In this document: piece after piece, positions 8,986-46,365 of the stretch
Layout of the letters: the number at the start of each line of letters is the position of its first letter
Numbering within the stretch: position 1 is the stretch's first letter
Virus record (IMG/VR): IMGVR_UViG_3300044695_003623
Location: 1-47,231 of that record
Length of the DNA: 47,231 nucleotides
Strand: one strand, 5' to 3'
Origin: a virus
Program-made: the position numbers and the translations under genes
The notes under the pieces: generated by a model
The model's input: the letters and a program-made list of their open reading frames with translations, nothing else
Told to the model about the DNA's origin: nothing
Database searches by the model: none

Positions 8986-11927
8986 TGGCGACTCCCTTCA
9001 TGCTGGCTTGCGGCCCGGCTGATGAACTCAATGGCTTGCAACGTCACGGGGTAGTGGCTCCCGCTGCTGATGTAGATAGTGCTGCTGCCGGGCAATCCCA
9101 CAGGACTCACTCGCCACGTTGCTTCGCCAGCCAGAAAGCCGTTTGTTGGGCTAAACGCCTGAATCACCGAGTCGTTAGCCCGCACCATTTCAACCTGCAT
9201 ATCGCCGCTGCGCCGCACACGCATACGCATGGCAGTGATAATCGGGCGTGCGGGCAGACTCGATACGCCGTTGTCGTATCGAATGAACTGCTCAGAGAGT
9301 TGCAGCACCCAGTTGTATGGACGGCCAAGGGTTGCCGTGCCCGCATAGTTGCCAGCAACACGGGCTGACGTGCCGCTGGGACGAACCAAATCACGCAAGA
9401 CGCCATCGGGGGTGATGACTTTTGTAAGAGTGCTGTCAGTAAACGGAATCGTGTAGTTGGTGTTGGTGCCGTCAAACGTGCCCGTCAGCGTCGTGCGGCG
9501 GTCAAGGCGCAAGGGCAATGGCGTTGTTGCCAAAGCAGATGCTTGCACCACAGCATCGGGCTGGATGCGAAGAGACTCAAAGACATACTCGCCGCTGCTG
9601 GAAGTGATGTTCTGGTTGACATCGCGGGTAACACGCTCGCACAACAGAATCACCTCGTTGCGCAGGTTGACCATATCGACGATGCGCACGCCCGTGTCAA
9701 GTTGGTAGATGCTCCACGCCCGCATGAGTTCGCGGCTGCCAGAGAAGTACGTGCGTAGCACATAGAACAGGCTGCTGTTGCGTGGCAGGATGCCCAGCCA
9801 GCCTTCACCTGGCAAACTCACCATGCGGTCTGAGAACGCCTCAACCAGATTGGGCACATGGTCAGCCACGTTATCGCCGATGCTGGCGGCACTCGCTTCG
9901 TCGTAGGCGTATCGCCACACCGATGCAGTCTGCCGCACTCCACCCGTTACGCCGCTCAAAGGATTGCCCATCATGTAGGCGAATGGTCCAGCCAGCACCG
10001 GCTGGTGAGGCAATGACGGGAAGACGGGGCCAAGGTTGACCGTGGCCTGCGTGGGCGTGAAGGCGTTGCCGCCAATCTCAAAGACTTGTTCAGGCTGGGT
10101 CAACACCAGCACCTTATCGCGATACGCAAGCATGGCGTAGGGCGTGGGAGCCTGCGAAGCCGCCAGCGTCAGCGTGATGCGGTCATCGTCAGCAACCACA
10201 CCTTCTTTAGTCAGGTAAAAATTGTACAAGTCGCCTGCTTTGGTCCAGCAGACGTTTGACCCCATCGCAAGGCCCAGCCGGTTCTTGAACACGGTCAATG
10301 CCGTGACCTTCTGGCCCGTCTTGAATGGCTCAGGAATGTCGTTTGTTTCTTCGTCCCCATCCTCGCGGGCGTTCCACGTAATCGCCTCTACGGTGAACGT
10401 AGCGGGCGTGGTGCCATCGCCGGTGTAGCCCGTGCGAACCATGCGGTGGGGCATAGAAGTCGAGTCAGGCCGGTAGCGCGGCTGGTCAGGTGCGTACACC
10501 TTGGTCCAGCGGTCAGCAATCGCCACGCGAACGCCGCCAGTGCCAAGCATGCCGCCAGTGCCTGCCGTGATAGTGTGTTCGAGGGCCGTCTTGCTGAAAG
10601 GCCGGTCGTCCACGGTCAAGTCGCCGCTGCTTGTGCCGCCGATGGGGGTCTGCGGCGCGTAGATAGTCGCGTCGTTGCCCTTCCACGGGCCAGTAATCAG
10701 GAACGCGCCGTTGCCGTTGAGACTTGGCACCCACGCCACCAGCACATCGTCGCCACCAAGGGCGCGAAACTCTTGTTGCAGGCGGTCGGCAATATCGGTC
10801 ATGTCGTTGATGCGGGCAGCGGCAATGTCGCCCGCAATGTCAACTGACAATTCATACTCGCGGCCTACGCCATCTATGGCAATATCTGCCGTTGCGTTGA
10901 CCATCGCCACGCTCTGGCCCACGGCGTAAGCAGGCGAGCCGCCAGCGGCCAATGCCCGCACCACGATGGTGTCGTTGAGGGCACCAATCTTGTTTCTGAT
11001 GTACGTCACCCATCCGCTGGTAGAACCAGACGGGTAGGTGTTGCCCGTACCCGCCGTGATGCGCACCATGTCGTTGGTTTCAAAGGTAACGCCAGCAAAG
11101 CCGCCAACCTTGGTCAGTTCCCACTCGCCACTACCAATGTTCGTCGCCGTAACACCCGTCAATGCCAAGTTGAGGCGACGAAAGCCAATGCGAAGCGTAC
11201 TGGGTGAGTTTGACGCATCATCCCAGTCGCCGCGCAATTTGCCCCAGTCGGTGTACGGCCAGATGCGGGCAGAGAATGTGGCAAAGGTGCGACCATCTGC
11301 GCCGGGCGTGTACTGGTAGTAGCCTGCGGCCAAGTCAACGCCGTCAGCACGCGCCCGGTGGTAGGTGTTGACTGCGGGAGTTTGCGCAACCATCGTGTCG
11401 GCATCATCCCACGTTGCCGTCAGGGTGTACGTGGGGCTTGCCAGCATCGCAACCGCTTTGTTCGTGCTGTAGACGAATGTGGTGTCGCCCTCAGTCTTGA
11501 GTTGCAGATTCGTGGGCGATGTGGCGGTGTTGAGGTAGGTTTGTGATGCACCCGCATATGTGACGGTGGCTTCAAGAAACGAACCATTGCTGAGCCGTTC
11601 AAAGACGCGCAGCCGCATGTTGGCACCAACAAGCCCGCGAACCACAATGTACTGCTCGCGGTCGTCACGGTCGATGGTGTGGGTTTGGTACGAACCTGCT
11701 GCGGTCATGCTCGAAAGCGTGCTTGTACCGACAACCGCCCGCCACTGTGTACCCGCACGCTTGCTTGCACCGTCGAATGGGTGAAAGTCGGTGTTGATGC
11801 CGTCAGTAAGCTGGTTGCCAAATCGCGACATGCTGGGCTGCTGGCTGATGCCACCAGACAGAACGCCGCTGATAAGCGGAACTTCCTGCTCCCGAAAGCG
11901 AGCGAGGTCGCGTGCGGCACGACTCAT
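8982..11927 (-). CDS. Tail tubular protein B-like (T7 gp12 analogue), 981 aa
   Basis: A large beta-rich protein. It has the opening typical of gp12-like nozzle proteins (LISGVLSGGISQQPSMSRFGNQLTDGINTDFHPFDGASKRAG, residues 17-57, shown here only to mark the region) and the internal motif FKNRLGLAMGSNVCWTKAGD, in which the family reads structure positions around the portal tail. It forms the tip of the short tail. It lies between a gp11-like gene and a gp14-like gene, exactly as in T7. Longer than T7 gp12, suggesting added surface domains. Confidence 0.88.
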   Translation of the reverse strand: MSRAARDLARFREQEVPLISGVLSGGISQQPSMSRFGNQLTDGINTDFHPFDGASKRAGTQWRAVVGTSTLSSMTAAGSYQTHTIDRDDREQYIVVRGLVGANMRLRVFERLSNGSFLEATVTYAGASQTYLNTATSPTNLQLKTEGDTTFVYSTNKAVAMLASPTYTLTATWDDADTMVAQTPAVNTYHRARADGVDLAAGYYQYTPGADGRTFATFSARIWPYTDWGKLRGDWDDASNSPSTLRIGFRRLNLALTGVTATNIGSGEWELTKVGGFAGVTFETNDMVRITAGTGNTYPSGSTSGWVTYIRNKIGALNDTIVVRALAAGGSPAYAVGQSVAMVNATADIAIDGVGREYELSVDIAGDIAAARINDMTDIADRLQQEFRALGGDDVLVAWVPSLNGNGAFLITGPWKGNDATIYAPQTPIGGTSSGDLTVDDRPFSKTALEHTITAGTGGMLGTGGVRVAIADRWTKVYAPDQPRYRPDSTSMPHRMVRTGYTGDGTTPATFTVEAITWNAREDGDEETNDIPEPFKTGQKVTALTVFKNRLGLAMGSNVCWTKAGDLYNFYLTKEGVVADDDRITLTLAASQAPTPYAMLAYRDKVLVLTQPEQVFEIGGNAFTPTQATVNLGPVFPSLPHQPVLAGPFAYMMGNPLSGVTGGVRQTASVWRYAYDEASAASIGDNVADHVPNLVEAFSDRMVSLPGEGWLGILPRNSSLFYVLRTYFSGSRELMRAWSIYQLDTGVRIVDMVNLRNEVILLCERVTRDVNQNITSSSGEYVFESLRIQPDAVVQASALATTPLPLRLDRRTTLTGTFDGTNTNYTIPFTDSTLTKVITPDGVLRDLVRPSGTSARVAGNYAGTATLGRPYNWVLQLSEQFIRYDNGVSSLPARPIITAMRMRVRRSGDMQVEMVRANDSVIQAFSPTNGFLAGEATWRVSPVGLPGSSTIYISSGSHYPVTLQAIEFISRAASQHEGSRQ

Positions 11928-14682: not shown

Positions 14683-15954
14683 TTACGACGATTGACGCAG
14701 GCGCAGTCGGTTGCGTCCGCGAACGCCGCCGCCGTGGGTGATTGGGCCATTGAGGATGAACCACGAAAGGTCGGCGTGGTTGTCGCGAAGGGTGGAGTTG
14801 GCCGTGGCGGGGTGGATGGTGTCAACCAGTTGGCTTGCAGACCACGCAGAATAGTTGCCGTAAATGTCGCGTTGCCAGCCACCAAAGTCCACGCATTCAA
14901 CATACGGGTCGGCAACCGCAACTGCAATCGTCTGGGCGCGAATTTCGGCCCAGAATGCAGCATCACCGTCGCTGATGGCGTCGTATTGCGTGAGCAGGCA
15001 GAAGTACGGGATTGCCACGCCAGCAGCAACGGCAGCCGCCTTGTAGCGAGCGATGATGGTTTTTAGGCGGTCGCCAAATCCAACCGTGGTCGTTTCGTTT
15101 GCGCCAAGCGGAACAAAGATGTAATTCCACTGAAAGGTTCTGAAATCTTCAATCAACGCTTCGTCGCTGTAGGCAGCGGTGTACGGCGTGCCATCGGACG
15201 AGATGGTTGCACCAGTCTCGTTCTGGTGGTGAACCGTGGACCAACTACCGTGGCCCTTCATGTGGCCCCAGAAGATGCCGCTTGTCTTATTTGTGCAACG
15301 GACGCCAAAACACGCGGGCTTGAAGACGCCGGTTTCGGTTTGGTCCCATGCGTTGATTCGACCAACCGCAACTGTCGCGCCGGTGCCACGGTTGAACACG
15401 GCAGAAGAAAACGAACGAATCGCTTTCGCCTGTTGCATGTTGATAAATATGCCGCCAAGCCCCACGTTTGACCTTGAAACGCCTTGGATGTTCCAAGCGG
15501 CAGACGAATTGGTGTAATACCCAGTCAGCGATGCGCTGGTTTCTGCAATCATCAAGACTTCCATGTTCTGACTTGCATCCCAGTCTGATTCGTTTGGACC
15601 AAGCGGGCGGGCCGTCATTTGTATCGGAGAGCCGAACACGCCAGTCGCATCGCCACTGCCTACGTTGGTGCTGGACAGGTTGAATTTGCTTGTGCCGTCA
15701 CCTGGATTCTCACCGGGCCTGACAGCAGCAATGCTTGCCATGCCAGCAAGCCCCGCCGTAATGGGCCATTCCGCGCCAACGCTGTTGATGAGGTTGGTTG
15801 TTCCACCACGACACGCGAGAGGGAATCGCGACACGTATGACAACGCCACGTTCCACCCTTGATTGATCTGAAAGATGGAGTTGCCAACAAACGTCGCATT
15901 GATGCGCCCGCTCTTGAGCCGCTTGAAGTGGCCTCGGTTTACGTGGGTTGCCAT
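14683..15954 (-). CDS. SGNH/GDSL-type hydrolase, probable tail-associated deacetylase
   Basis: 423 residues with the blocks of an SGNH hydrolase. Block I is VGNS at 23-26, with a Ser at 26 as likely nucleophile (GNS replaces GDS). A G-x-N block is in PLGANE, with Asn 286. The last block is DTIHP, with Asp 378 and His 381. Family members remove acetyl groups from surface polysaccharides. In a tail-gene cluster this suggests modification of host glycans during adsorption. About 230 residues of beta-type sequence lie between blocks I and III. Its ATG overlaps the TAA of the preceding gene. Confidence 0.7.
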   Translation of the reverse strand: MATHVNRGHFKRLKSGRINATFVGNSIFQINQGWNVALSYVSRFPLACRGGTTNLINSVGAEWPITAGLAGMASIAAVRPGENPGDGTSKFNLSSTNVGSGDATGVFGSPIQMTARPLGPNESDWDASQNMEVLMIAETSASLTGYYTNSSAAWNIQGVSRSNVGLGGIFINMQQAKAIRSFSSAVFNRGTGATVAVGRINAWDQTETGVFKPACFGVRCTNKTSGIFWGHMKGHGSWSTVHHQNETGATISSDGTPYTAAYSDEALIEDFRTFQWNYIFVPLGANETTTVGFGDRLKTIIARYKAAAVAAGVAIPYFCLLTQYDAISDGDAAFWAEIRAQTIAVAVADPYVECVDFGGWQRDIYGNYSAWSASQLVDTIHPATANSTLRDNHADLSWFILNGPITHGGGVRGRNRLRLRQSS

Positions 15955-17889: not shown

Positions 17890-17895
17890 AAACCA

Positions 17896-17923
17896 CCCCG
17901 CCGCGATTTCTCGGCAGGCGGGG
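17896..17923 (-). terminator. GC-rich hairpin after the decoration-like gene
   Basis: Arms CCCCGCC and GGCGGGG (17896-17902 and 17917-17923) enclose a 14-base loop. The stem lies 13 bases past the stop of the 17937 gene and before the next start. On the minus strand only a short T-poor tail follows, so it may attenuate or protect mRNA rather than terminate strongly. Confidence 0.4.
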
Positions 17924-17936
17924 CAGGAAAGGGGGT

Positions 17937-26447: not shown

Positions 26448-26605
26448 GGGTTTCCTTTCGCCGCGTCCACCGCGTCAAACAACTCTTTCTTGGCCGTGAT
26501 GATTTCGTGCATCATGCCCGTGCCTTGCGCGAAGCGTGCTTCGGCGTCGCGAAGGTGCAAGGCGGCGGCGATGATGCGTTGTGCTTGGTCGGTCGTGATG
26601 GTCAA
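26444..26605 (-). CDS. Small helical protein coupled to RNA polymerase, 53 aa
   Basis: Begins at a TTG at 26605 with AGGAG six bases upstream. The TTG shares bases with the stop of the beta-helix gene (TTGA). The reading frame ends in a TGA that overlaps the ATG of the polymerase. The product is a helix-rich peptide (AQRIIAAALHLRDAEARFAQ; MMHEIITAKKELFDAVDAA). Coupling at both ends argues for translation. Function unknown; a polymerase partner is only a guess. Confidence 0.65.
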   Translation of the reverse strand: MTITTDQAQRIIAAALHLRDAEARFAQGTGMMHEIITAKKELFDAVDAAKGNP

Positions 26606-28125
26606 CGCTTGCTCCTATCAATCACCCCGCTAGTCTCAAACTGCTCGCCCCACTCGCCTGACTTGCGGGAGAGAAGTGCGTCGATGATGGGCTGCCAATC
26701 TATGCCGCTGCTGGTGGTTTTCACGTCGTTGTTTTCTCGCGTCACTTCGCCGACTGGCACACGCAATCCTTGGTCGGTGCTGCTCATCCACGGGCGGGCC
26801 ACGCCGCGAACGATGTTGCCCGTGATTGCGGTCGGCTTGCCCAGCATGTACGAGAAGCCCCACTGTGCAGGCTCACCTTCGCGTGCGTCGGCTAGCAGGT
26901 TGTTGCTGACGGTGGCGGAAGTCCAGACTGTCTTCGATTCGTCGGTCGCGTTGTAGGCCATTGGGTGGCCGGTGCCAATGCCGGTGTTGAAGCCCCAGCA
27001 CACGTTTGATTGAATGGTGAAGTCGCCGCCGCGAGCCTGGATTGCTGCACTGCCGGGCAACCCCACCCAGTTGTTCACGACAATGCGGGTTGCGCCCGCC
27101 GTGTGAACAAGGTACATGCCGTGGCAGAATTGGTTGCGGCTGCCGTTGTTGTATAGCACATTGCTGTCGATGAGCGTCATCGTGTCGGCTGACGCGAAGA
27201 TGCCTTGGCTGTGGCTGACGGGGTGGCGTTGGTCGCGGATGATGTTGCGTCGGATGCGGATGGGGCCGGTTCGTTTGTCCATGCCCTGAATGCTCACGCC
27301 GATTGCGCCGCCTACGAGTTCGCAGTCTTCGATGAGAATGTTCTTGGCGTCGCCTTGGATGGCGACGATTGCACCGTGCCCATCGCCCACAAGTCGTAGC
27401 CCGCGCAATTCGACGTACTGCAAGCCTCCGACGATTCGGCACCCGGCTCCCACTGTTGCGGGCAGTCGAAGTGTTGGACGCTCGCCGTTGGGTCCGGGTA
27501 GACCACGGATGATGAGAGGTCGGCCAGGCTTGCCGCCGTAAGCCAAACCATCCATGCCGGGCCAGTTGATCGCCTCAATATAAGCGTCTGCACGCCAAGG
27601 AAGTGTAATGATTCCACCATCAAGAGATACCAGAACGGCGGCGGCGATGGTTGGAAACTCTGGCGTTCCCACGGTTCGCTCCACGCATCCGGCACACACG
27701 ACAGGCGTGAAGCCTCCGTTGGAACACGGCCCACCAGCAAGAACAGCCAACCAGTCTGTAAAGTCTCTGTCATCGGGGAAAACTCCGTCGCCGTTGAAGT
27801 CAATGGTGTCGCACGTCGGGCAATCGGCACCCGCGAGGACGTTCTGGAAGTCGGTCGTGTCTTGGTCTGACGGATAAACCCCGTCGTTGTTGAAGTCGAG
27901 GTCGGTGCATTGGGCGCGGGCAGGTGCGGCCATGAGTACCGCCGCACACGCGATGAGTGCGACAAGCAAGATTGCGACCGAGAGGTGTATGAAACTTTGA
28001 TTGGTTTTCTGTTGCAAGTGATTGATCCTTCGTTCAAGTCCAGCGATTTCGAGCCTCATCGCGCCTTTGTCTTCGGACACGTTGCGGGCGATGTCTCGCG
28101 GTGTTGCTTGTGGGGGGGTGGTCAT
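26602..28125 (-). CDS. Membrane-anchored dockerin-like/parallel beta-helix protein
   Basis: 507 residues. Residues 20-45 form a charged coiled-coil-like helix, and 48-66 a membrane segment ending in Ala-x-Ala. Two calcium-loop repeats of dockerin type follow (DLDFNNDGVYPSDQ and TIDFNGDGVFPDD, about 75-125). From about 150 to 470 repeating strand-turn units with N and G ladders (RRNIIRDQ, VVNNWVGL, NIVRGV) indicate a right-handed beta-helix of the pectate-lyase superfamily. Phage tail spikes use this fold, but the membrane anchor suggests a host-surface or secreted protein. The ATG at 28125 has a GGAAGGAAAGG site. Confidence 0.7.
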   Translation of the reverse strand: MTTPPQATPRDIARNVSEDKGAMRLEIAGLERRINHLQQKTNQSFIHLSVAILLVALIACAAVLMAAPARAQCTDLDFNNDGVYPSDQDTTDFQNVLAGADCPTCDTIDFNGDGVFPDDRDFTDWLAVLAGGPCSNGGFTPVVCAGCVERTVGTPEFPTIAAAVLVSLDGGIITLPWRADAYIEAINWPGMDGLAYGGKPGRPLIIRGLPGPNGERPTLRLPATVGAGCRIVGGLQYVELRGLRLVGDGHGAIVAIQGDAKNILIEDCELVGGAIGVSIQGMDKRTGPIRIRRNIIRDQRHPVSHSQGIFASADTMTLIDSNVLYNNGSRNQFCHGMYLVHTAGATRIVVNNWVGLPGSAAIQARGGDFTIQSNVCWGFNTGIGTGHPMAYNATDESKTVWTSATVSNNLLADAREGEPAQWGFSYMLGKPTAITGNIVRGVARPWMSSTDQGLRVPVGEVTRENNDVKTTSSGIDWQPIIDALLSRKSGEWGEQFETSGVIDRSKR

Positions 28126-28153
28126 GCCTTTCCTTCCTGCCGCGTGGGGCGGC

Positions 28154-28372
28154 TTAGTTACCGTGAATCTTGGCGAACACCGCATCCAGTCCCATCGCGC
28201 GGACCTGCGTGTTCGTCTGAAAGTTGTTGCGAATGCGGAACAACTGGAAGTGCCTGCGCCACCACGAATCTGTGGGCTGGGCGTGACTGGTAAGCCACGT
28301 CGATGGAAGCAGGCGGATTTCGATGTGACCTTGGCGGCGCGGGAAGTGCCAGCGGAGATGAAAGGCGATCAT
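28154..28372 (-). CDS. Hypothetical basic protein, 72 aa
   Basis: Trp/Arg/His-rich (HLRWHFPRRQGHIEIRLLP; DSWWRRHFQLFRIRNNF). The ATG at 28372 overlaps the upstream stop (ATGA), which fixes the frame. No family recognised; strongly basic character would suit nucleic-acid binding. Confidence 0.6.
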   Translation of the reverse strand: MIAFHLRWHFPRRQGHIEIRLLPSTWLTSHAQPTDSWWRRHFQLFRIRNNFQTNTQVRAMGLDAVFAKIHGN

Positions 28373-39699: not shown

Positions 39700-39720
39700 A
39701 AAACGCGGCATGGCCGTTTT
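39700..39720. terminator. Bidirectional terminator-like hairpin after the repressor
   Basis: AAAACG and CGTTTT flank CGGCATGGC; the AT runs serve as tails in both directions. It lies between the repressor stop and the attP candidate. A second pairing (CGCGGCA with TGCCGCG, 39704-39731) overlaps it. Confidence 0.6.
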
Positions 39721-39746
39721 GACCTGCCGCGAGGGGTTTGATATGG

Positions 39747-39784
39747 CTTGGGAAGCTAGCGTTCTACCACTGAACTACGCCCGC
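39747..39784 (-). other. 5' half of a tRNA-Gly (CCC) gene: probable attP core
   Basis: Reading the minus strand from 39784, GCGGGCG, TA, GTTC-AGTGGTA-GAAC, G and CTAGC-TTCCCAA reproduce the acceptor 5' strand, D arm and anticodon loop of a bacterial tRNA-Gly(CCC). After the loop the match stops: only GC of the 3' anticodon strand is present and no T arm follows. Located just past the integrase operon. A tRNA half ending at the anticodon loop is typical of an integrase core site. Confidence 0.7.
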
Positions 39785-40264: not shown

Positions 40265-41339
40265 CTGTCCGTTCCTTTCTCGCCAGCGGCACCATCACCG
40301 CCTGCTCAATCCTACTCCCCCGCTCCCGCTGCCTGTAGTGCCGCATCGCGACCTCTACCGAGTGGCCCAACCACTCTGCAACGTCCTGAATCGGGTGTTG
40401 ATCCATCATGTCGTTCGCAAAGCTCGCCCGCAAGCTGTGTAGGGGCTTGCCGTAGTCCTCGACGCCGCTGCGCTCCACGACGCCGCGTGCGTCACGCTCA
40501 AAGTTGTTCGGGTTGACTCGCACCAGCAAACCCGTCCGCGAGGGTTGGTTAGCCAACACCTCGTACAGTTCGGGCTTGATTGGCACCACGCGGCGGTGCT
40601 TCTTGGTGCTGTCGCGAGTCGCCCCATCGTCTTCGCCGCCTTCTACGGTCATTCGGCGGGCTTGCAGGTCAATCTGCGACCAGTCCGCCCGCTCTATCTC
40701 GTTGCGCCGTAGCCCACCCAGCCGGGCAAGGTTGAAAACCAGCCGCCACGATTCGTTGGGGCACGCTTTCAACAGCAACGCCAGTTCGGACAGGGGCACG
40801 TAGCGAGAGAACGCCACGCCAACCCGGTGCTTCTGCCGCCCCTCCTTGGCAGCCCGTGACGCGAACGGGTTGGTGGTGGTAAGCCGGGCCTCTATCGCAA
40901 TCGCCCATATCCGGTGTGCGTCCCGCAGGTGGCGATTGATGCTGGACGATGAGTGTGCCACTCCGTCAGTCTTGCGGAGTGATTCGAGGTAGGCCACGAA
41001 CGAACGGGCGTCGGCGTCCGTCACTTCGTCCATCCGCTTGCCCGCGCCAAGGTGTGCGACCAGACGCGAGAACGTGAGTTCGTACAACTGGCGAGTCTCG
41101 CGCGTCAACTTCCCGCACATTGCGAAGAACCGATGCGACCAAGATTCGATGCTGTCAGGCTCAATGAGGGGCGTGGTGTCTAGCTCGCGTTGTATCTCCC
41201 CGCACCGCATCATCGCTTCCGCGCGGGAAACGTCGCCGATGTGCCGGTACATCTGCCGCACCGTTCCATCGGGCATGGGTTGCTTCCACGCGGCACGCCA
41301 GCCCTTTGCGCCGTTCTTGCGAGGGGTGACGATAATCAT
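40227..41339 (-). CDS. int: Tyrosine recombinase / phage integrase
   Basis: 370 residues. Core-binding domain at about 60-150 (with WSHRFFAMCGKLT). Catalytic residues: Arg 211 (GGLRRNEIERADW), Lys near 246-247, H-x-x-R at 301-304 (HSLRASF), His 326 (WLGHS) and the nucleophile Tyr 335 (AMRHYRQ). It would integrate the genome, probably at the tRNA-Gly site located downstream. Coupled to the XRE gene by ATGA. Confidence 0.93.
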   Translation of the reverse strand: MIIVTPRKNGAKGWRAAWKQPMPDGTVRQMYRHIGDVSRAEAMMRCGEIQRELDTTPLIEPDSIESWSHRFFAMCGKLTRETRQLYELTFSRLVAHLGAGKRMDEVTDADARSFVAYLESLRKTDGVAHSSSSINRHLRDAHRIWAIAIEARLTTTNPFASRAAKEGRQKHRVGVAFSRYVPLSELALLLKACPNESWRLVFNLARLGGLRRNEIERADWSQIDLQARRMTVEGGEDDGATRDSTKKHRRVVPIKPELYEVLANQPSRTGLLVRVNPNNFERDARGVVERSGVEDYGKPLHSLRASFANDMMDQHPIQDVAEWLGHSVEVAMRHYRQRERGSRIEQAVMVPLARKERTDDHSNTATVAVS

Positions 41340-41572: not shown

Positions 41573-41591
41573 GTTGGTTCCTTTCAATCCC

Positions 41592-41614
41592 GCCCGCGCG
41601 GGTGAGCGACGGGC
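41592..41614 (-). repeat. Leader hairpin E6 (fixed-geometry family)
   Basis: Lower stem GCCCG/CGGGC, a single bulged T where other members have a C:C mismatch, upper stem CGC/GCG, six-base loop TCACCC. Preceded by ACCCACCCCTC and followed by GGGATTG and the ribosome site of the XRE gene. Confidence 0.65.
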
Positions 41615-41624
41615 GAGGGGTGGG

Positions 41625-41894
41625 TCACTCGCCGTATACCTTGTCGGCACGGTCAATAGCCTCCGACTTAGGCATGGGGCCAAAGTACGTTGCGTCCGAG
41701 TTGAAACGTGGGTATGAAACATGCTCAGGCCAAACCACGCGCCACCACATCCCGCCCAGCGTGTCCGCGCATGTGCAATCTTCCCCGCAGGTGCAGTTGT
41801 GTTCGACTACATCCGTCCAAGGCGTGTCTGTGCTGCCTTCGATTGCACTGATGAGGTCGCCCGTGCTGATCGCTACTGACTTGTGCTTAGCCAT
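41625..41894 (-). CDS. Hypothetical protein, 89 aa
   Basis: Contains a Cys-rich C-T-C-G-E-D-C-T-C-A patch (about 43-51) and a Trp/Pro region (MWWRVVWPEHVSYPRF). Possible metal binding. ATG 41894 follows GAAGGGAAG. No family recognised. Confidence 0.55.
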   Translation of the reverse strand: MAKHKSVAISTGDLISAIEGSTDTPWTDVVEHNCTCGEDCTCADTLGGMWWRVVWPEHVSYPRFNSDATYFGPMPKSEAIDRADKVYGE

Positions 41895-41911
41895 GTTCTT
41901 CCCTTCAAATT

Positions 41912-41966
41912 CCACCTGCAATCCGGTGGGCCGATCAATCCCGCCCAGCGTGGTTAGACGGTGGGC
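41912..41966 (-). repeat. Leader hairpins E5 (two stem-loops)
   Basis: First hairpin (41943-41966): GCCCA/TGGGC, C:C mismatch, CGT/ACG, loop CTAACC. Second hairpin (41912-41929): CCACC/GGTGG with loop GGATTGCA. The same second loop occurs in E4 on a different stem. Preceded by CACCCCTC. Confidence 0.7.
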
Positions 41967-41978
41967 GAGGGGTGGGTG

Positions 41979-42464
41979 TCAAGCAACTTGTGCCACGGCC
42001 TTTGGTTCGATGGTGACGAGAACGCCACCCTTGCGACGACGTACCTTGATTCGCTTCTCCGCAGCAGCTACCCGCCATTCATACGCCGTGTCTTTCTTTG
42101 CCGCCTTCTCCGCTTCGTCGCACGCATACCAAATGTCGTGCAGCAGCCAGTACCGATCATCGCTGCTCAACTTGGAAAGCAAATCGGGCAGGTTGCTATA
42201 GGTTCTGACGTGGTGCAGCACGGTCCCACCCCCGTGACGGCAGGCAATTTGCAACCGCCCGCTCTCATGCCGGTGCTTGACCAGTTGGAAGTGGTAGGAA
42301 TGCGAGTCGCACTTGTTGCGCCCGCAACGACCAGGTTCATCGTACAGAACCGTGTAGTCGTCGCCAAGTTTCGGCGGGTTGGGTTGGTAGGTGCTGAAAT
42401 GCACGCCGTCCCATGAATACGCATTGGGTGTACCGTTCACGCTGTTTCCGCCGCATCCGCACAT
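41979..42464 (-). CDS. Hypothetical Cys/His-rich protein, 161 aa
   Basis: Begins MCGCGGNSVNG and has CGRNKCDSHSYHF and ACRHGGG patches that could bind metal. The C-terminal end is basic (RRRKGGVLVTIEPK). AGGAG precedes ATG 42464. No family recognised. Confidence 0.55.
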   Translation of the reverse strand: MCGCGGNSVNGTPNAYSWDGVHFSTYQPNPPKLGDDYTVLYDEPGRCGRNKCDSHSYHFQLVKHRHESGRLQIACRHGGGTVLHHVRTYSNLPDLLSKLSSDDRYWLLHDIWYACDEAEKAAKKDTAYEWRVAAAEKRIKVRRRKGGVLVTIEPKAVAQVA

Positions 42465-42476
42465 AGCCAATCTCCT

Positions 42477-42541
42477 GTGTTTGCGCACACCCCTGCAATC
42501 CGGGGCCGATGAAACCCGCGCCGCACGGTCAAGCGGGGCGC
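42477..42541 (-). repeat. Leader hairpins E4 and GTGCGCAAACAC box
   Basis: First hairpin (42518-42541): GCGCC/GGCGC, C:C mismatch, CGC/GTG, loop TTGACC. Second hairpin (42490-42505): CCCC/GGGG with loop GGATTGCA. A GTGCGCAAACAC box (42477-42488) then leads into AGGAG. Confidence 0.7.
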
Positions 42542-42550
42542 GAGGGGTGG

Positions 42551-42787
42551 TTAGATAAGGGCGATGTTCACGAGGTTGGCACGGTAGAACCTGCCCACAA
42601 TCGACCATTCGTGGTCAATTTCCACGTCTGCGTCCTTGCTCCGCTTCACGATCTTCCGCACGGTGCCGGTCATGCCGTAGAGTTTGAATTGCTGCTGCAC
42701 ACCATCGACGTACACGGGGATGGTTCGGTCACCAATGTACTTGACGCGATCCCCAACCGAGAAGCCTGCGAACGTGGTAGTCTTCAC
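42551..42787 (-). CDS. Small SH3/KOW-like protein, 78 aa
   Basis: FSVGDRVKYIGDRTIPV and YGMTGTVRKIVKRSKDADV show the paired-strand, G-x-x-G-x-V pattern of small SH3/KOW-type barrels. ATG overlaps the upstream stop. Possibly RNA- or protein-binding. Confidence 0.6.
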   Translation of the reverse strand: MKTTTFAGFSVGDRVKYIGDRTIPVYVDGVQQQFKLYGMTGTVRKIVKRSKDADVEIDHEWSIVGRFYRANLVNIALI

Positions 42788-43230
42788 ATCCCACCCCCAT
42801 TCGTCGCGCGGGCGATGGCGGCGCGGGCTGCGGCTGCACGGTTGGCAAGCGTGTCGCGAGAGATGGGGTGATTCGGATCAACCGAAAGCCGCAAGTCGCG
42901 TTCAACGCCTTCTGCAATGGCAAGCAATGCCGCGTACAGGTCGGGCGCGGCTGCCCCCAGCTTCGCATTCGCTACGTTTTCTTCGTAGCTGCGGCCCACC
43001 CACCCGTCGAAGTTGGCAACTAGGTTGCCGTTCTGGTCATACACAAACGGCTTGCGGTGCGATGCCACGGGTTCGCTGTAATGCCACTGGCGAGGGGTGG
43101 GCATCTTCCGCAGGTCCGCGTTGATACGCGCCGCCGCGCGGTCGTGGTCTTCCATATCGTAACCGCCGGTGAACTCGTCAAATTGTTCGGGCTGTTCTTG
43201 GACGCGAGGGGTGCTATTGTCTGTACGCAT
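42784..43230 (-). CDS. Hypothetical protein, 148 aa
   Basis: Soluble, partly helical (LYAALLAIAEGVERDLRLSV; RAAAARAAIARATN). ACTGGAG lies before ATG 43230. A Trp-containing central part (FDGWVGRSYEENVANAK) may be the functional core. No family recognised. Confidence 0.55.
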   Translation of the reverse strand: MRTDNSTPRVQEQPEQFDEFTGGYDMEDHDRAAARINADLRKMPTPRQWHYSEPVASHRKPFVYDQNGNLVANFDGWVGRSYEENVANAKLGAAAPDLYAALLAIAEGVERDLRLSVDPNHPISRDTLANRAAAARAAIARATNGGGM

Positions 43231-43253
43231 TGCTGCAACTCCAGTGATGCCAC

Positions 43254-43338
43254 GCCCCCGGTGTTTGCGCACGCGGGGGCAACTTGTTTCCCCGCACAAC
43301 GCGAGGGCGAAAACAGGCCGGACCCGTTGGGGTGCGGC
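43254..43338 (-). repeat. Leader hairpins E3, box held in a GC hairpin
   Basis: First hairpin (43317-43338): GCCG/CGGC, C:C mismatch, ACC/GGT, loop CCAACG. The box GTGCGCAAACAC (43261-43272) sits in the loop of a seven-base-pair stem, GCCCCCG/CGGGGGC (43254-43280). Confidence 0.7.
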
Positions 43339-43347
43339 GTGTGGGTG

Positions 43348-43698
43348 TTACTTCTCCAGACCAGACAGCACGCGGAATCCGCGACGAAGCACGGTTGCCA
43401 TGCGATCGATGTACTCGGGTGCCTTGCGATATGAGAAACAGGTTTCTTCAATAACCAAATTGCGCCACATTTCCAGTTCGTGATTCGCGTGAGTCTCTGC
43501 CGCATAAGCCGGAATCGCGTACACCAACCCATGAACACAAAGCTGTTTGTTCTTGTCCAAGTACGTTGTAGTCCAATACACGTTCTTTGCGGTTTTCTTC
43601 ACGACAATGCCAAGTCCGCCGTCAAAATTGCCCCACCACCACTTACCGGAAAAAAGTTGAACCTTCAGCCCCCGGCACGTCTGCGAATGCGTTGTCAT
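43348..43698 (-). CDS. Hypothetical protein, 116 aa
   Basis: Aromatic-rich (QLFSGKWWWGNFDGGLGIVV; YWTTTYLDKNKQLCV). TGGAG lies eight to twelve bases before ATG 43698. Likely a small soluble early protein. No family recognised. Confidence 0.55.
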   Translation of the reverse strand: MTTHSQTCRGLKVQLFSGKWWWGNFDGGLGIVVKKTAKNVYWTTTYLDKNKQLCVHGLVYAIPAYAAETHANHELEMWRNLVIEETCFSYRKAPEYIDRMATVLRRGFRVLSGLEK

Positions 43699-43711
43699 CG
43701 TTCATTCTCCA

Positions 43712-43775
43712 GTGTTTGCGCACAAGCCAGGCACAACGCCCAGCGAAACCCGCGCAGACCCGTTGGGGTGTGCGC
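43712..43775 (-). repeat. Leader hairpins E2 and box
   Basis: First hairpin (43752-43775): GCGCA/TGCGC, C:C mismatch, ACC/GGT, loop CCAACG. A weaker second stem (GCTGGGC/GCCTGGC with two wobbles) follows. The box GTGCGCAAACAC is at 43712-43723, two bases from TGGAG. Confidence 0.7.
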
Positions 43776-43785
43776 GAGGGGTGGG

Positions 43786-44574
43786 TTAGAATGCAGTCTC
43801 GGACCACGCGCGGAACATGTGCTGCCACAGGTCAGACTGCCAAGCGTCCGTAGCTGGCACATCGTCAGCGTTGAAGCCCTTGGACTTCCACGCCGTGCGT
43901 ACTGCGTCGATGGTGTGGGTGCGCGATGCGTGTACGTACTTTGCGCTACCAAACACATCGCCCCAAGTGCTATCCGATTCGCTGGCGTGGTTGTAGCAAT
44001 CCGTCATACCGTCAAATGTCCCGTATTCGTGTTTGTCCAAAATTGCATTCACGCTGGCGGATGTGGGACCATCGACCCATGAAACGTCGATAGAGTTCCC
44101 ACCAGAAAACGACTTGTAGCGAATTGAAAACTTGGTTTTCGGGTACAGTCGTTTGAGTTCGCGCCGGATGTTCTCGGCAGCGATGCGACCCGGTGCCCAG
44201 TCTTTGCGAGCTTGCACGGTCAGCAAGTGCGGGTGAAGTGTGGGCAGTGCGCCGCGAATGTTGGCGTTCTCTGCCGCTTCCGCTTTCTTCTCGCGTTCTT
44301 TCTGGGCTTGTTTCTGCTCTGCATCGTGCAACATACGCACGACTTCATCATGTTCGGCCATGCCCGGCAGCACTTCCCAACGGTCAAACGGGCTTTCTCG
44401 CGTAATCAACCCATCATCCCACACCACATCCAGCACGATGGCGACAGCTTGCATTGTCGCGCCGATGGTGTATATGGGTCGATCTGGCTTACGTGCGTTG
44501 AAAACGACGCCAGTTCTGTAGTTTGCTGCATCGGACCAACGAACACGCATACCAACAATGTCGCGAAGTTCCAT
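43786..44574 (-). CDS. Early protein with LPD29-like domain, 262 aa
   Basis: The C-terminal half (IRRELKRLYPKTKFSIRYKS, GNSIDVSWVDGPTSASVNAI, GTFDGMTDCYN) resembles large polyvalent-protein-associated domain 29, common in phage and conjugative-element proteins. The N-terminal half has a charged coil (EQKQAQKEREKKAEAAENAN). AGGAG precedes ATG 44574. Such domains often occur in proteins deployed early against the host, but function is unproven. Confidence 0.6.
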   Translation of the reverse strand: MELRDIVGMRVRWSDAANYRTGVVFNARKPDRPIYTIGATMQAVAIVLDVVWDDGLITRESPFDRWEVLPGMAEHDEVVRMLHDAEQKQAQKEREKKAEAAENANIRGALPTLHPHLLTVQARKDWAPGRIAAENIRRELKRLYPKTKFSIRYKSFSGGNSIDVSWVDGPTSASVNAILDKHEYGTFDGMTDCYNHASESDSTWGDVFGSAKYVHASRTHTIDAVRTAWKSKGFNADDVPATDAWQSDLWQHMFRAWSETAF

Positions 44575-44586
44575 ACGTTTCTCCTA

Positions 44587-44646
44587 GTGTTTGCGCACAC
44601 CGCCCACATCGGGCGGAAACAGGCCCAGACCCGGTAGGGTGTGGGC
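44587..44646 (-). repeat. Leader hairpins E1 and box
   Basis: First hairpin (44623-44646): GCCCA/TGGGC, C:C mismatch, ACC/GGT, loop CTACCG. Second hairpin: CCGCCC/GGGCGG (44600-44616). Box GTGCGCAAACAC at 44587-44598, then TAGGAG. Confidence 0.7.
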
Positions 44647-44654
44647 GTGGTGGG

Positions 44655-44903: not shown

Positions 44904-44921
44904 GATTCGATTCTCCTGCTC

Positions 44922-44953
44922 GTTTGCGCGAATCGCTTGCCGACGCTGGCAAG
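44922..44953 (-). promoter_or_regulatory. 5' leader of the early operon: hairpin plus GCGCAAAC box
   Basis: CTTGCC and GGCAAG (44936-44953) form a six-base-pair hairpin with a six-base loop within a few bases of the predicted transcription start. GCGCAAAC (44922-44929) follows, a relative of the box upstream of the next four leader sites, then AGGAG. Confidence 0.55.
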
Positions 44954-44962
44954 TGATATATC

Positions 44963-44991
44963 AGTATACACTACACATCGACCGCTGTCAA
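44963..44991 (-). promoter_or_regulatory. Strong sigma70-like promoter of the early operon
   Basis: Minus-strand TTGACA (44986-44991) and TATACT (44963-44968) are separated by exactly 17 bases. This is a near-consensus host promoter, with start expected near 44956. It drives the early genes leftward. Confidence 0.85.
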
Positions 44992-45662
44992 GTATGAAAG
45001 CAAAGAATCTGGCGTGCAACTTGCAGATTCCCCCCTTCGTGTGTGTTGATCCCCCTTGATTCCACAATTCCAGACGGTAGAATCAGTCTTTCGTTGTACG
45101 TGAGTACTTACAAACATCGCAGGTACTCCAGCATCACGACACATCCGCGCGCACACCATCGCGAGCAGCACACACTCACCAATTGCTACGCTCGCAACGT
45201 GTGTGCGCGGGTGCGCCGTGTGTGGGTGGGTGTGTGTGACGAAAAAAGCAGGGTGACGACGGACGCCCAGTAGGTCGGTGTGGTGGTGGGTAGGCTGCGG
45301 TGGTGACGTGGTGGGTAACGCGGTAGTGGGTCAAGTGATGCGAGTAGAGTGGGCAGTGGGTCGGCTATCTCACACGCGCGTGAGTCTCGCCCCCATCCCG
45401 TGCATCCAGGCGGTACACATGACCACGCGAGCAAGAATCCTGTGCATCCAGGCGGTGAAACGCACACCACAACGCACACCAAAGATGCAAATACCTGCAA
45501 TTGCGACACTTGCAACGGTTGCCGCTGGCTTCGTGAGCCAGATGCACACACGATGCACGCAGACGAGGGGGGCTAGGGGGGGATCGCGGGGGCGGCTGGT
45601 AGTCAGTTGACCCCCTCAACCGTCTGGAAAAAATATCGAGGGGGTTACACAAAGGAGTCCAC
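44992..45662. other. Long gene-free region: G-rich tracts, direct repeats and plus-gene leader
   Basis: No supported gene. Features on the plus strand: GT-rich stretches with repeated GTGGTGGGTA-like units (about 45275-45355); a 15-base direct repeat GTGCATCCAGGCGGT (45400-45414 and 45442-45456); long G runs of 6, 7 and 5 at 45567-45592 with quadruplex potential; and a stem ACCCCCTC/GAGGGGGT (45610-45617 with 45638-45645) before the 45663 gene. It could hold a replication origin. Confidence 0.5.
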
Positions 45663-45989
45663 ATGAGCGACGTGAACAACACAACGGATCAAACGACGGA
45701 CGACGGTGACACAATTGCTGACCACAGCGAGAGTCACTACTCAAAGGCAACGCATGACAACTTCGACTACATCGCAATCGTCAAACTTGGCGACCAATGG
45801 CATTCAGTGCTTACCAGCCTGCTGGTTGAACACGACGACGGCTTTGTTACGCTTGAGCCTCCGATTGTCGAGCATGAAAACTTCTGGCCTGGACTCGCAA
45901 TAGGAGGTCGCAGAGTGCCATGTCCTCGCGGCCTGAGCGTTCGCAAGGAATGTGTGCTTGCAGTCATCGACGCCCCGATGGGTAGCTAA
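45663..45989 (+). CDS. Hypothetical plus-strand protein, 108 aa
   Basis: Acidic N-terminus (MSDVNNTTDQTTDDGDTIAD) and an alpha/beta body (YIAIVKLGDQWHSVLTSLLV; LSVRKECVLAVIDA). AAAGGAG about eight bases before the ATG supports translation. With the repressor it is one of only two plus-strand genes. Ends overlap the stop of the converging 45986 gene. Confidence 0.65.
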   Translation: MSDVNNTTDQTTDDGDTIADHSESHYSKATHDNFDYIAIVKLGDQWHSVLTSLLVEHDDGFVTLEPPIVEHENFWPGLAIGGRRVPCPRGLSVRKECVLAVIDAPMGS

Positions 45990-46267
45990 TGCTTGTCCTT
46001 CACCTTCCAGTATTCCTTCGCCATGACTTCGAGCATGGGCAGGACGGTGTTGCGTGAGAGGTCGCCCATGAGGTCTTGTGCTATTGCACGTTCGTCTTTG
46101 AGCCTGCACACGACCACGCGGAAGACGTAGCCTTCGTTGGGCACGTAGCCCATGATGTGCAGCGCGAACCGCAAGCCGTCTTCGTGCTTGCTGTTGTGCT
46201 TGTTGTGGCAGGCGATGAGGGCGTTGCGGACGGCGTTGCGGACACGGTTGGGTATGTGGTGTTCCAT
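45986..46267 (-). CDS. Hypothetical protein, 93 aa
   Basis: Helical and strand parts (NRVRNAVRNALIACHNKHNS; YVFRVVVCRLKDERAIAQDL). Its ATG shares one base with the upstream TGA. It ends against the plus-strand gene. No family recognised. Confidence 0.6.
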   Translation of the reverse strand: MEHHIPNRVRNAVRNALIACHNKHNSKHEDGLRFALHIMGYVPNEGYVFRVVVCRLKDERAIAQDLMGDLSRNTVLPMLEVMAKEYWKVKDKH

Positions 46268-46365
46268 CAGTTCCCGCTGTAGAAAGGGTTGTCCGCAAGC
46301 AGGTCATCACAGTCAGGGGATACGAGGTCGTCAGGGAAGATGGGTTCGAGGGAAGGCCACGCCAT
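46267..46365 (-). CDS. Very small acidic protein, 32 aa
   Basis: MAWPSLEPIFPDDLVSPDCD and a short tail. GGGGG precedes ATG 46365, and its TGA overlaps the next ATG (TGATG). Translation is inferred from these junctions. Confidence 0.5.
   Translation of the reverse strand: MAWPSLEPIFPDDLVSPDCDDLLADNPFYSGN

Follow-up and report, generated by a model that had tools for sequence, protein, structure and literature searches.

In T7, the intercistronic sites cut by RNase III form duplexes some two helical turns long (∼20 bp), and cleavage takes place in a larger internal loop. In the gal operon, an 8-bp hairpin stops 3'-5' decay after RNase E cleavage and sets polarity (PMC11925234), and RNase E itself cuts RN|WUU in single-stranded RNA, at sites enriched around stop codons (PMC5222698). 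Among phage elements, the SAS/ESAS repeats of cluster K mycobacteriophages show departures that are generally without support for RNA pairing, and their authors favoured DNA-binding sites (PMC3203893); the gp43 operators of T4-type phages carry the loops UAAC (T4 and RB69), CAAC (from systematic evolution of ligands by exponential enrichment) or UAAA (RB49) (PMC3014915); and HK022 has, behind its early promoters, two put elements of ∼70 nt that are similar in sequence and consist of two hairpins each (PMC9378689). Here we describe HP1, a hairpin that recurs between the early genes of a 47,231-base uncultured viral record, IMGVR_UViG_3300044695_003623 (the whole of which is referred to below as the window). 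Comparative sequence analysis indicates that HP1 is a real structured RNA, whose sequence varies while its shape (a stem, a fixed mismatch and a small loop) is kept, and which probably marks sites of mRNA trimming or regulation between genes.

Geometry and covariation of HP1

The window holds six copies of HP1, all on the minus strand. W1 (44620-44649) reads CAC GCCCA C ACC CTACCG GGT C TGGGC CTG and is followed by the tail TTTCC; W2 (43749-43778) reads CTC GCGCA C ACC CCAACG GGT C TGCGC GGG, with the tail TTTCG; W3 (43314-43341) CAC GCCG C ACC CCAACG GGT C CGGC CTG, with TTTTC; W4 (42515-42544) CTC GCGCC C CGC TTGACC GTG C GGCGC GGG, with TTTCA; W5 (41940-41969) CTC GCCCA C CGT CTAACC ACG C TGGGC GGG, with ATTGA; and W6 (41589-41617), where a bulged U replaces the mismatch, CTC GCCCG U CGC TCACCC GCG CGGGC GGG, again with ATTGA. 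A first-pass annotation of the same DNA had placed six short hairpins here, and their positions, arms, mismatches and loops all hold; the stem is longer than it had claimed, by two or three outer pairs, which are CTC/GGG in four copies and CAC/CTG in two, and whose bases are paired by RNAfold in several junctions. In W1-W3, a fourth pair, C-G, extends the upper stem and closes a tetraloop (UACC, CAAC and CAAC, respectively). The full unit thus comprises about 11 pairs (10 in W3) around one internal mismatch, with a loop of 4-6 bases.

This geometry is found in 6/6 minus-strand gaps, versus a mean of 0.22 and a maximum of 3/6 in 2000 dinucleotide shuffles of the gaps. A search of the window with the model R2 returned the six copies, which are its own training members, at 32.7-49.6 bits, with the next match at 17.6 bits. 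No Rfam family reached the gathering threshold in the window, where a permissive search gave chance-like matches only.

Two flanking motifs had also been proposed. The box CACCCCTCGC, said to precede most hairpins, does so in four of the six: at 43774-43783, it lies between the stop codon and HP1 and overlaps the outer 5' arm of the latter, and further boxes precede HP1 at 42540-42549, 41965-41974 and 41613-41622, all on the minus strand. The box is enriched over chance, with seven exact copies in the window, all on the minus strand between 41.3 and 43.8 kb, but the three others (41319-41328, 43090-43099 and 43204-43213) are coding and have no hairpin; they read in frame as ACC CCT CGC (Thr-Pro-Arg), and two of them stand just past a start codon. 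Similarly, the proposed GGGNTT tail is present as GGG[T/A]TT in four copies, but the other two have CTGTTT.

Relatives were sought with a DNA pattern that fixes only the box and the outer arm (CACCCCTCGC, 18-21 free bases, GCGGGNTT), which matched 13 stretches among 2.9 million viral contigs, several contigs having two or three matches. In the matched contigs, G001-G005, the terminase is ∼29% identical to that of the window where it could be read, and the SLT protein ∼40-70%. Their stems include GCCCA C TGC CTAAAC GCA C TGGGC, GCGCC C TCC CCACA GGA C GGCGC and GCCT C GCGTC CACC GACGC C AGGC. A covariance model built from nine copies, R1, recovered non-training copies in the G001 locus, L111, at 8176 (42.6 bits), 7825 (37.9 bits) and 8629 (28.7 bits), as well as one copy outside the early region of G004 and G005 (loci L142 and L143; 29 bits) and, in a further phage, L197, a copy that has U:U in place of the C:C mismatch (37.2 bits). 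Loci with an LPD29 relative and loci with the HP3 string showed neither a multi-copy box nor HP3, and in the 50 of these that were searched with R1 (653 kb), nothing scored above 18.8 bits.

Other searches gave no further relatives: the early regions of the window and of G001 showed no DNA similarity to any of 50,697 phage records, a search of viral contigs with RNA polymerase and terminase peptides had no matches, and L116 and L117, which are close in the SLT gene, are mosaics that have only some modules in common and carry no HP1. The scan of host genomes with the HP1 pattern gave 22 scattered stretches, which score only 16-27 bits and of which none is fully paired inside, so that nothing points to a host source. 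The relatives are without exception uncultured contigs, and because G002-G005 have many identical or near-identical copies in common, the independent lineages are few (the window, the G001 group and L197).

We collected the 12 distinct copies in a gapless alignment, A2, in which unknown positions of three copies were padded with N to hold the register. Standard pairs fill 97.7% of its pair cells, versus 71.2% when shuffled, two-sided compensatory changes occur at 8 of the 11 pairs, and the covariation score of 0.652, versus 0.147 for shuffled alignments, was reached by 0/500 shuffles. Shifting the partner by 1-3 columns leaves only 28-47% paired, and RNAalifold, unaided, returns the identical fold. 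The mismatch is C:C in 9/12 copies and U:U, C:A or a bulged U in the others, while the adjacent pairs vary, and the tail is G[U/A]UU in all 12. The tail and the outer pairs belonged to the search patterns or the model, and a check of the inner pairs, which the patterns left unconstrained, is less prone to selection bias; full inner pairing was found in 5/5 distinct pattern matches in related phages (one of which, that in L197, was chosen via the covariance model) versus 1/70 elsewhere.

Covariation in homologous phages, on which the first-pass annotation had staked its preference for RNA over a DNA operator, was thus tested and found: the stems differ in relatives, with pairing, mismatch and tail kept. 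In the mRNA sense, and only there, the alignment contains G·U pairs, ten in all, with A·C pairs lacking altogether, a pattern that favours RNA structure above a cruciform or dyad in DNA. DNA-level features such as an operator dyad, a cruciform or a REP- or attC-type mobile palindrome would also be repeated, short, intergenic and GC-rich, as HP1 is, but we regard all of them as highly improbable, given that pairing is kept though the arm sequences differ among copies, that G·U without A·C pairs bespeaks selection in one strand, and that a scan of the window for the geometry including the tail found seven instances on the minus strand and none on the plus strand.

Position at early junctions and candidate functions

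The window encodes a T7-type RNA polymerase, a T7-type terminase, a head-tail adaptor, a Sak4-like annealing protein and a tyrosine integrase, and its phage is therefore probably temperate and related to the T7-like podoviruses; polymerase and terminase are only ∼24-31% identical to those of isolates. At the head of the early operon, which points leftward, stands a putative sigma-70 promoter (TTGACA-17-TATACT, 44963-44991, minus strand; from a promoter scan), and the first gene of G001 is preceded by a comparable block, recognized by eye (GGTCGATG..GT....TATACTG.T.TATC). HP1 recurs at the non-overlapping junctions of this operon, in nearly every gap. In 11 of the 12 early junctions, only 4-9 nt separate the upstream stop codon from the start of the stem (40 nt in the exception), while the gap to the next start codon varies between 13 and 96 nt. 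With the inner GC arm as the reference point, the window copies lie 11-15 nt beyond the first base of the upstream stop codon. The window and G001 each have HP1 at six early junctions and never before the first gene; in the window, none lies between the promoter and the first gene, which the first copy follows. HP1 is thus fixed relative to the stop codon but not to the start, and the first leader has no copy; it is a junction element anchored to the stop and not a start-anchored leader, as which it had initially been described. Nor does it track a particular gene family: early proteins flanking it in the window and in G001 are largely unrelated, with weak or no matches except for the SLT protein, before whose gene the window has no HP1. 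The same element at six junctions in each of two phages with mostly unrelated flanking genes separates the function of the junction from that of the adjacent genes.

We tentatively favour a role as an intercistronic mRNA boundary in processing and protection. A presumed host endonuclease would cleave the polycistronic early transcript within the U-rich tail or close to it; HP1 would then shield the 3' end of the upstream message, right past its stop codon, from 3' decay, while hairpins further downstream (HP2 and HP3, see below) would shield the 5' end of the next message, and the outcome would be an individual mRNA half-life and expression level for each early gene. Processing and protection account for the RNA structure, the stop anchor, the recurrence at junctions and the G[U/A]UU tail, with the RNase E core RN|WUU fitting five of the six window tails, but not, alone, for the mismatch and the loop. 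Several points weigh against this role. The tail of W1 matches the core only partly, at U+2, and the W-U-U bases are predicted to be unpaired in only part of the junctions (probabilities of 0.06-1.0 over all junctions but the last). Conservation of the tail is independent for the six window sites only, as the tail was part of the pattern or model by which relatives were found. HP2 and HP3 of the window exceed shuffles in stability only weakly, if at all. Finally, the kept C:C mismatch and loop would be needless in a pure exonuclease block, which suggests that something reads the hairpin.

If so, HP1 may be the binding site of a phage or host RNA-binding regulator that reads the C:C mismatch and a YYAAC-type loop and coordinates all early cistrons, a possibility to which we give limited credence. 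It would explain why the mismatch stays C:C in most copies as neighbouring pairs vary and why HP1 is independent of gene family, and half of the 12 copies have CAAC, UAAC or UAAA as their loop core, which is also the set listed for the T4-type gp43 operator (PMC3014915). This likeness is only a lead, however, as the loop also takes the forms UACC, CACC, UGAC and CCACA, and a GNRA type in L142 and L143; moreover, HP1 sits at the stop codon and not over a ribosome-binding site, and the reader protein is only hypothetical. A broader and similarly speculative proposal is that HP1 represents an undescribed class of stop-anchored RNA, with a pyrimidine mismatch and a YYAAC-type loop, which, through a dedicated reader, would set each early cistron post-transcriptionally and replace the RNase III sites of T7 in temperate T7-like phages.

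A GC-rich hairpin directly past a stop codon and followed by 2-4 U also recalls a leaky attenuator or weak intrinsic terminator, which would impose a step-down gradient of early expression across the junctions, and stem turnover with kept pairing is seen in terminators too. This we consider unlikely: HP1 fits an intrinsic terminator poorly because only 2-5 of the 8 nt past its stem are U, versus 7/8 in two stem-plus-T-run terminators of the window itself (at ∼19.9 and 18.57 kb), and it was not reported by the terminator scan, has a fixed mismatch that terminators do not require, and runs directly into the start codon in L142 and L143 (GGTTTCATG). Less likely still is a translational boundary that keeps post-termination ribosomes from reaching the next leader by scanning, or that links termination with reinitiation. 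The start of the stem 4-9 nt past the stop falls near the downstream edge of the footprint of a terminating ribosome, and the 3' arm leads nearly straight into a start codon in a few relatives, but in the early operons the next start is 13-96 nt away, mostly with a Shine-Dalgarno (SD) sequence of its own, and the readthrough frame is no more open in the gaps than the other two. Stop-codon readthrough was itself rejected on this lack of a frame difference.

Accompanying hairpins and other features

A second hairpin, HP2, stands behind the tail in many junctions but is not uniform. On sequence and fold, HP2 of W1 is CCGCCC GATGT GGGCGG (44600-44616; weak alone, z -1.4), that of W2 GCTGGGC GTTGT GCCTGGC (43726-43744; z -0.3) and that of W3 CCCTCGC GTTGT GCGGGG (43290-43307), which has the same stem in L111, with the loop GCCGT. 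HP2 of W4 (GCCCC GGATTGCA GGGGT, 42489-42506) and of W5 (CCACC GGATTGCA GGTGG, 41912-41929) have their loop in common and, as GGACTGCA, with L197, so that one loop, GGAYTGCA, occurs on differing stems. At corresponding junctions of G001, G003 and G005, the stem is replaced nearly wholly (AGTTGTCAAG/CTTGACAACT, ACTGGCCGG/CCGACCAGT and AACCTATAAG/CTTACAGGTT) and the five-base loop kept, and the whole part downstream of HP1 is more stable in these phages than shuffles (z -5.3, -3.1 and -2.7, respectively); the values for HP2 and HP3 of the window are weaker (z 0.75 to -1.4). Close to the SD sequence follows the mini-hairpin HP3, GTG CGCAAA CAC (44587-44598, 43712-43723, 43261-43272 and 42477-42488), of which a variant, TCG CGCAAA CGA, precedes the first gene (44920-44931); all these HP2 and HP3 are on the minus strand. 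The comparisons of HP2 and HP3 were made by hand and are leads, of lower weight than the other results. By eye, and in some junctions only, kissing loops between CAAC of HP1 and GTTG of HP2 (in W2 and W3) and a pairing of the tail with HP3 (GUUU/AAAC) appear possible.

Hairpins that resemble HP1 were also seen elsewhere. At 17890-17926 (minus strand) of the window and 15502-15536 (minus strand) of L144, outside the early region, a stop codon, a C-rich spacer, a hairpin, GGTTT(T) and a start codon succeed one another within ∼50-70 nt, and these hairpins are possible diverged relatives. Between 32700 and 33020 and between 34380 and 34600 (minus strand) lie further intergenic hairpins that form a second set; GNRA-type loops and internal mismatches occur in several of them, an HP1-like tail follows (GGTTTGC or GGATTGC), and many are spaced ∼80-120 nt apart. 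In related loci, the box CCCCTCGC forms a hairpin with its complement, GCGAGGGG, around CGAAAC, and this hairpin stands right between a stop and a start codon (L111, 4355-4387, minus strand; L113, 3883-3915, minus strand; L114, 10331-10363, plus strand).

Adjoining the integrase gene, at 39746-39784 (minus strand), is the 5' part of a tRNA-like sequence (GCGGGCGTAGTTCAGTGGTAGAACGCTAGCTTCCCAAGC) with, by eye, a Gly-type anticodon arm; ARAGORN calls no complete tRNA there, and the fragment is possibly the attP core. Directly behind it, at 39705-39730 (minus strand), an HP1-like hairpin follows AACCCCTCGC (GCGGCA GGTC AAAAC GGCC A TGCCGC GTTTTC; by eye). Ahead of the early operon, at 45000-46300, the window has a long gap with simple-sequence, GT/CA-rich stretches, and G001 has a comparably low-complexity stretch before its first early gene (L111, ∼9050-9800). 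The protein encoded at 26602-28185 (minus strand), which has no NCBIfam match, carries two dockerin-like repeats, DFNNDG and DFNGDG, and is reminiscent of planctomycete proteins. A planctomycete host, as the first-pass annotation assumed, is plausible.

Comparison with described elements

HP1 resembles the intercistronic RNase III sites of T7 in being an RNA at early-operon junctions of a phage with a T7-type RNA polymerase, where structure is kept over sequence. It differs from them in size and build: it has about one helical turn, of about 11 pairs, instead of a two-turn duplex of ∼20 bp, with a 1x1 mismatch and at a fixed distance past the stop codon. With the 3'-end hairpin of the gal operon it has in common that it is a short GC hairpin in a polycistronic mRNA with a candidate cut downstream, and the likeness extends to cistron-specific stability and polarity, which HP1 would set; in contrast, the gal hairpin is a single host site inside galT, with neither a repeated family nor a conserved mismatch (PMC11925234).

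Similar to HP1, SAS/ESAS repeats are found at many non-structural genes and are partly imperfect inverted repeats, but they are anchored to start codons, whereas HP1 is anchored to stop codons and covaries (PMC3203893). The gp43 operator is, like HP1, a hairpin in early mRNA, and its UAAC/CAAC/UAAA loop core is seen in about half of the HP1 copies; it is, however, single, autoregulatory and near one ribosome-binding site, while HP1 recurs, has a more variable loop and does not overlap a ribosome-binding site (PMC3014915). HK022 putRNA likewise consists of cis-acting hairpins with non-canonical pairs in early transcripts (PMC9378689), and a put-like signal was among the first-pass suggestions for HP1. 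We rejected this candidate: HP1 departs from put in location, occurring at later junctions and not in the first leader, in shared sequence, its arms differing between copies, and in the arrangement as two stem-loops.

HP1 is a compact, testable unit for studying how early polycistronic mRNA is divided in phages outside the enterobacterial models, and its covariance model can be used to find more such phages. Set beside the systems above, it is a new RNA element, absent from Rfam, whose general kind is known.

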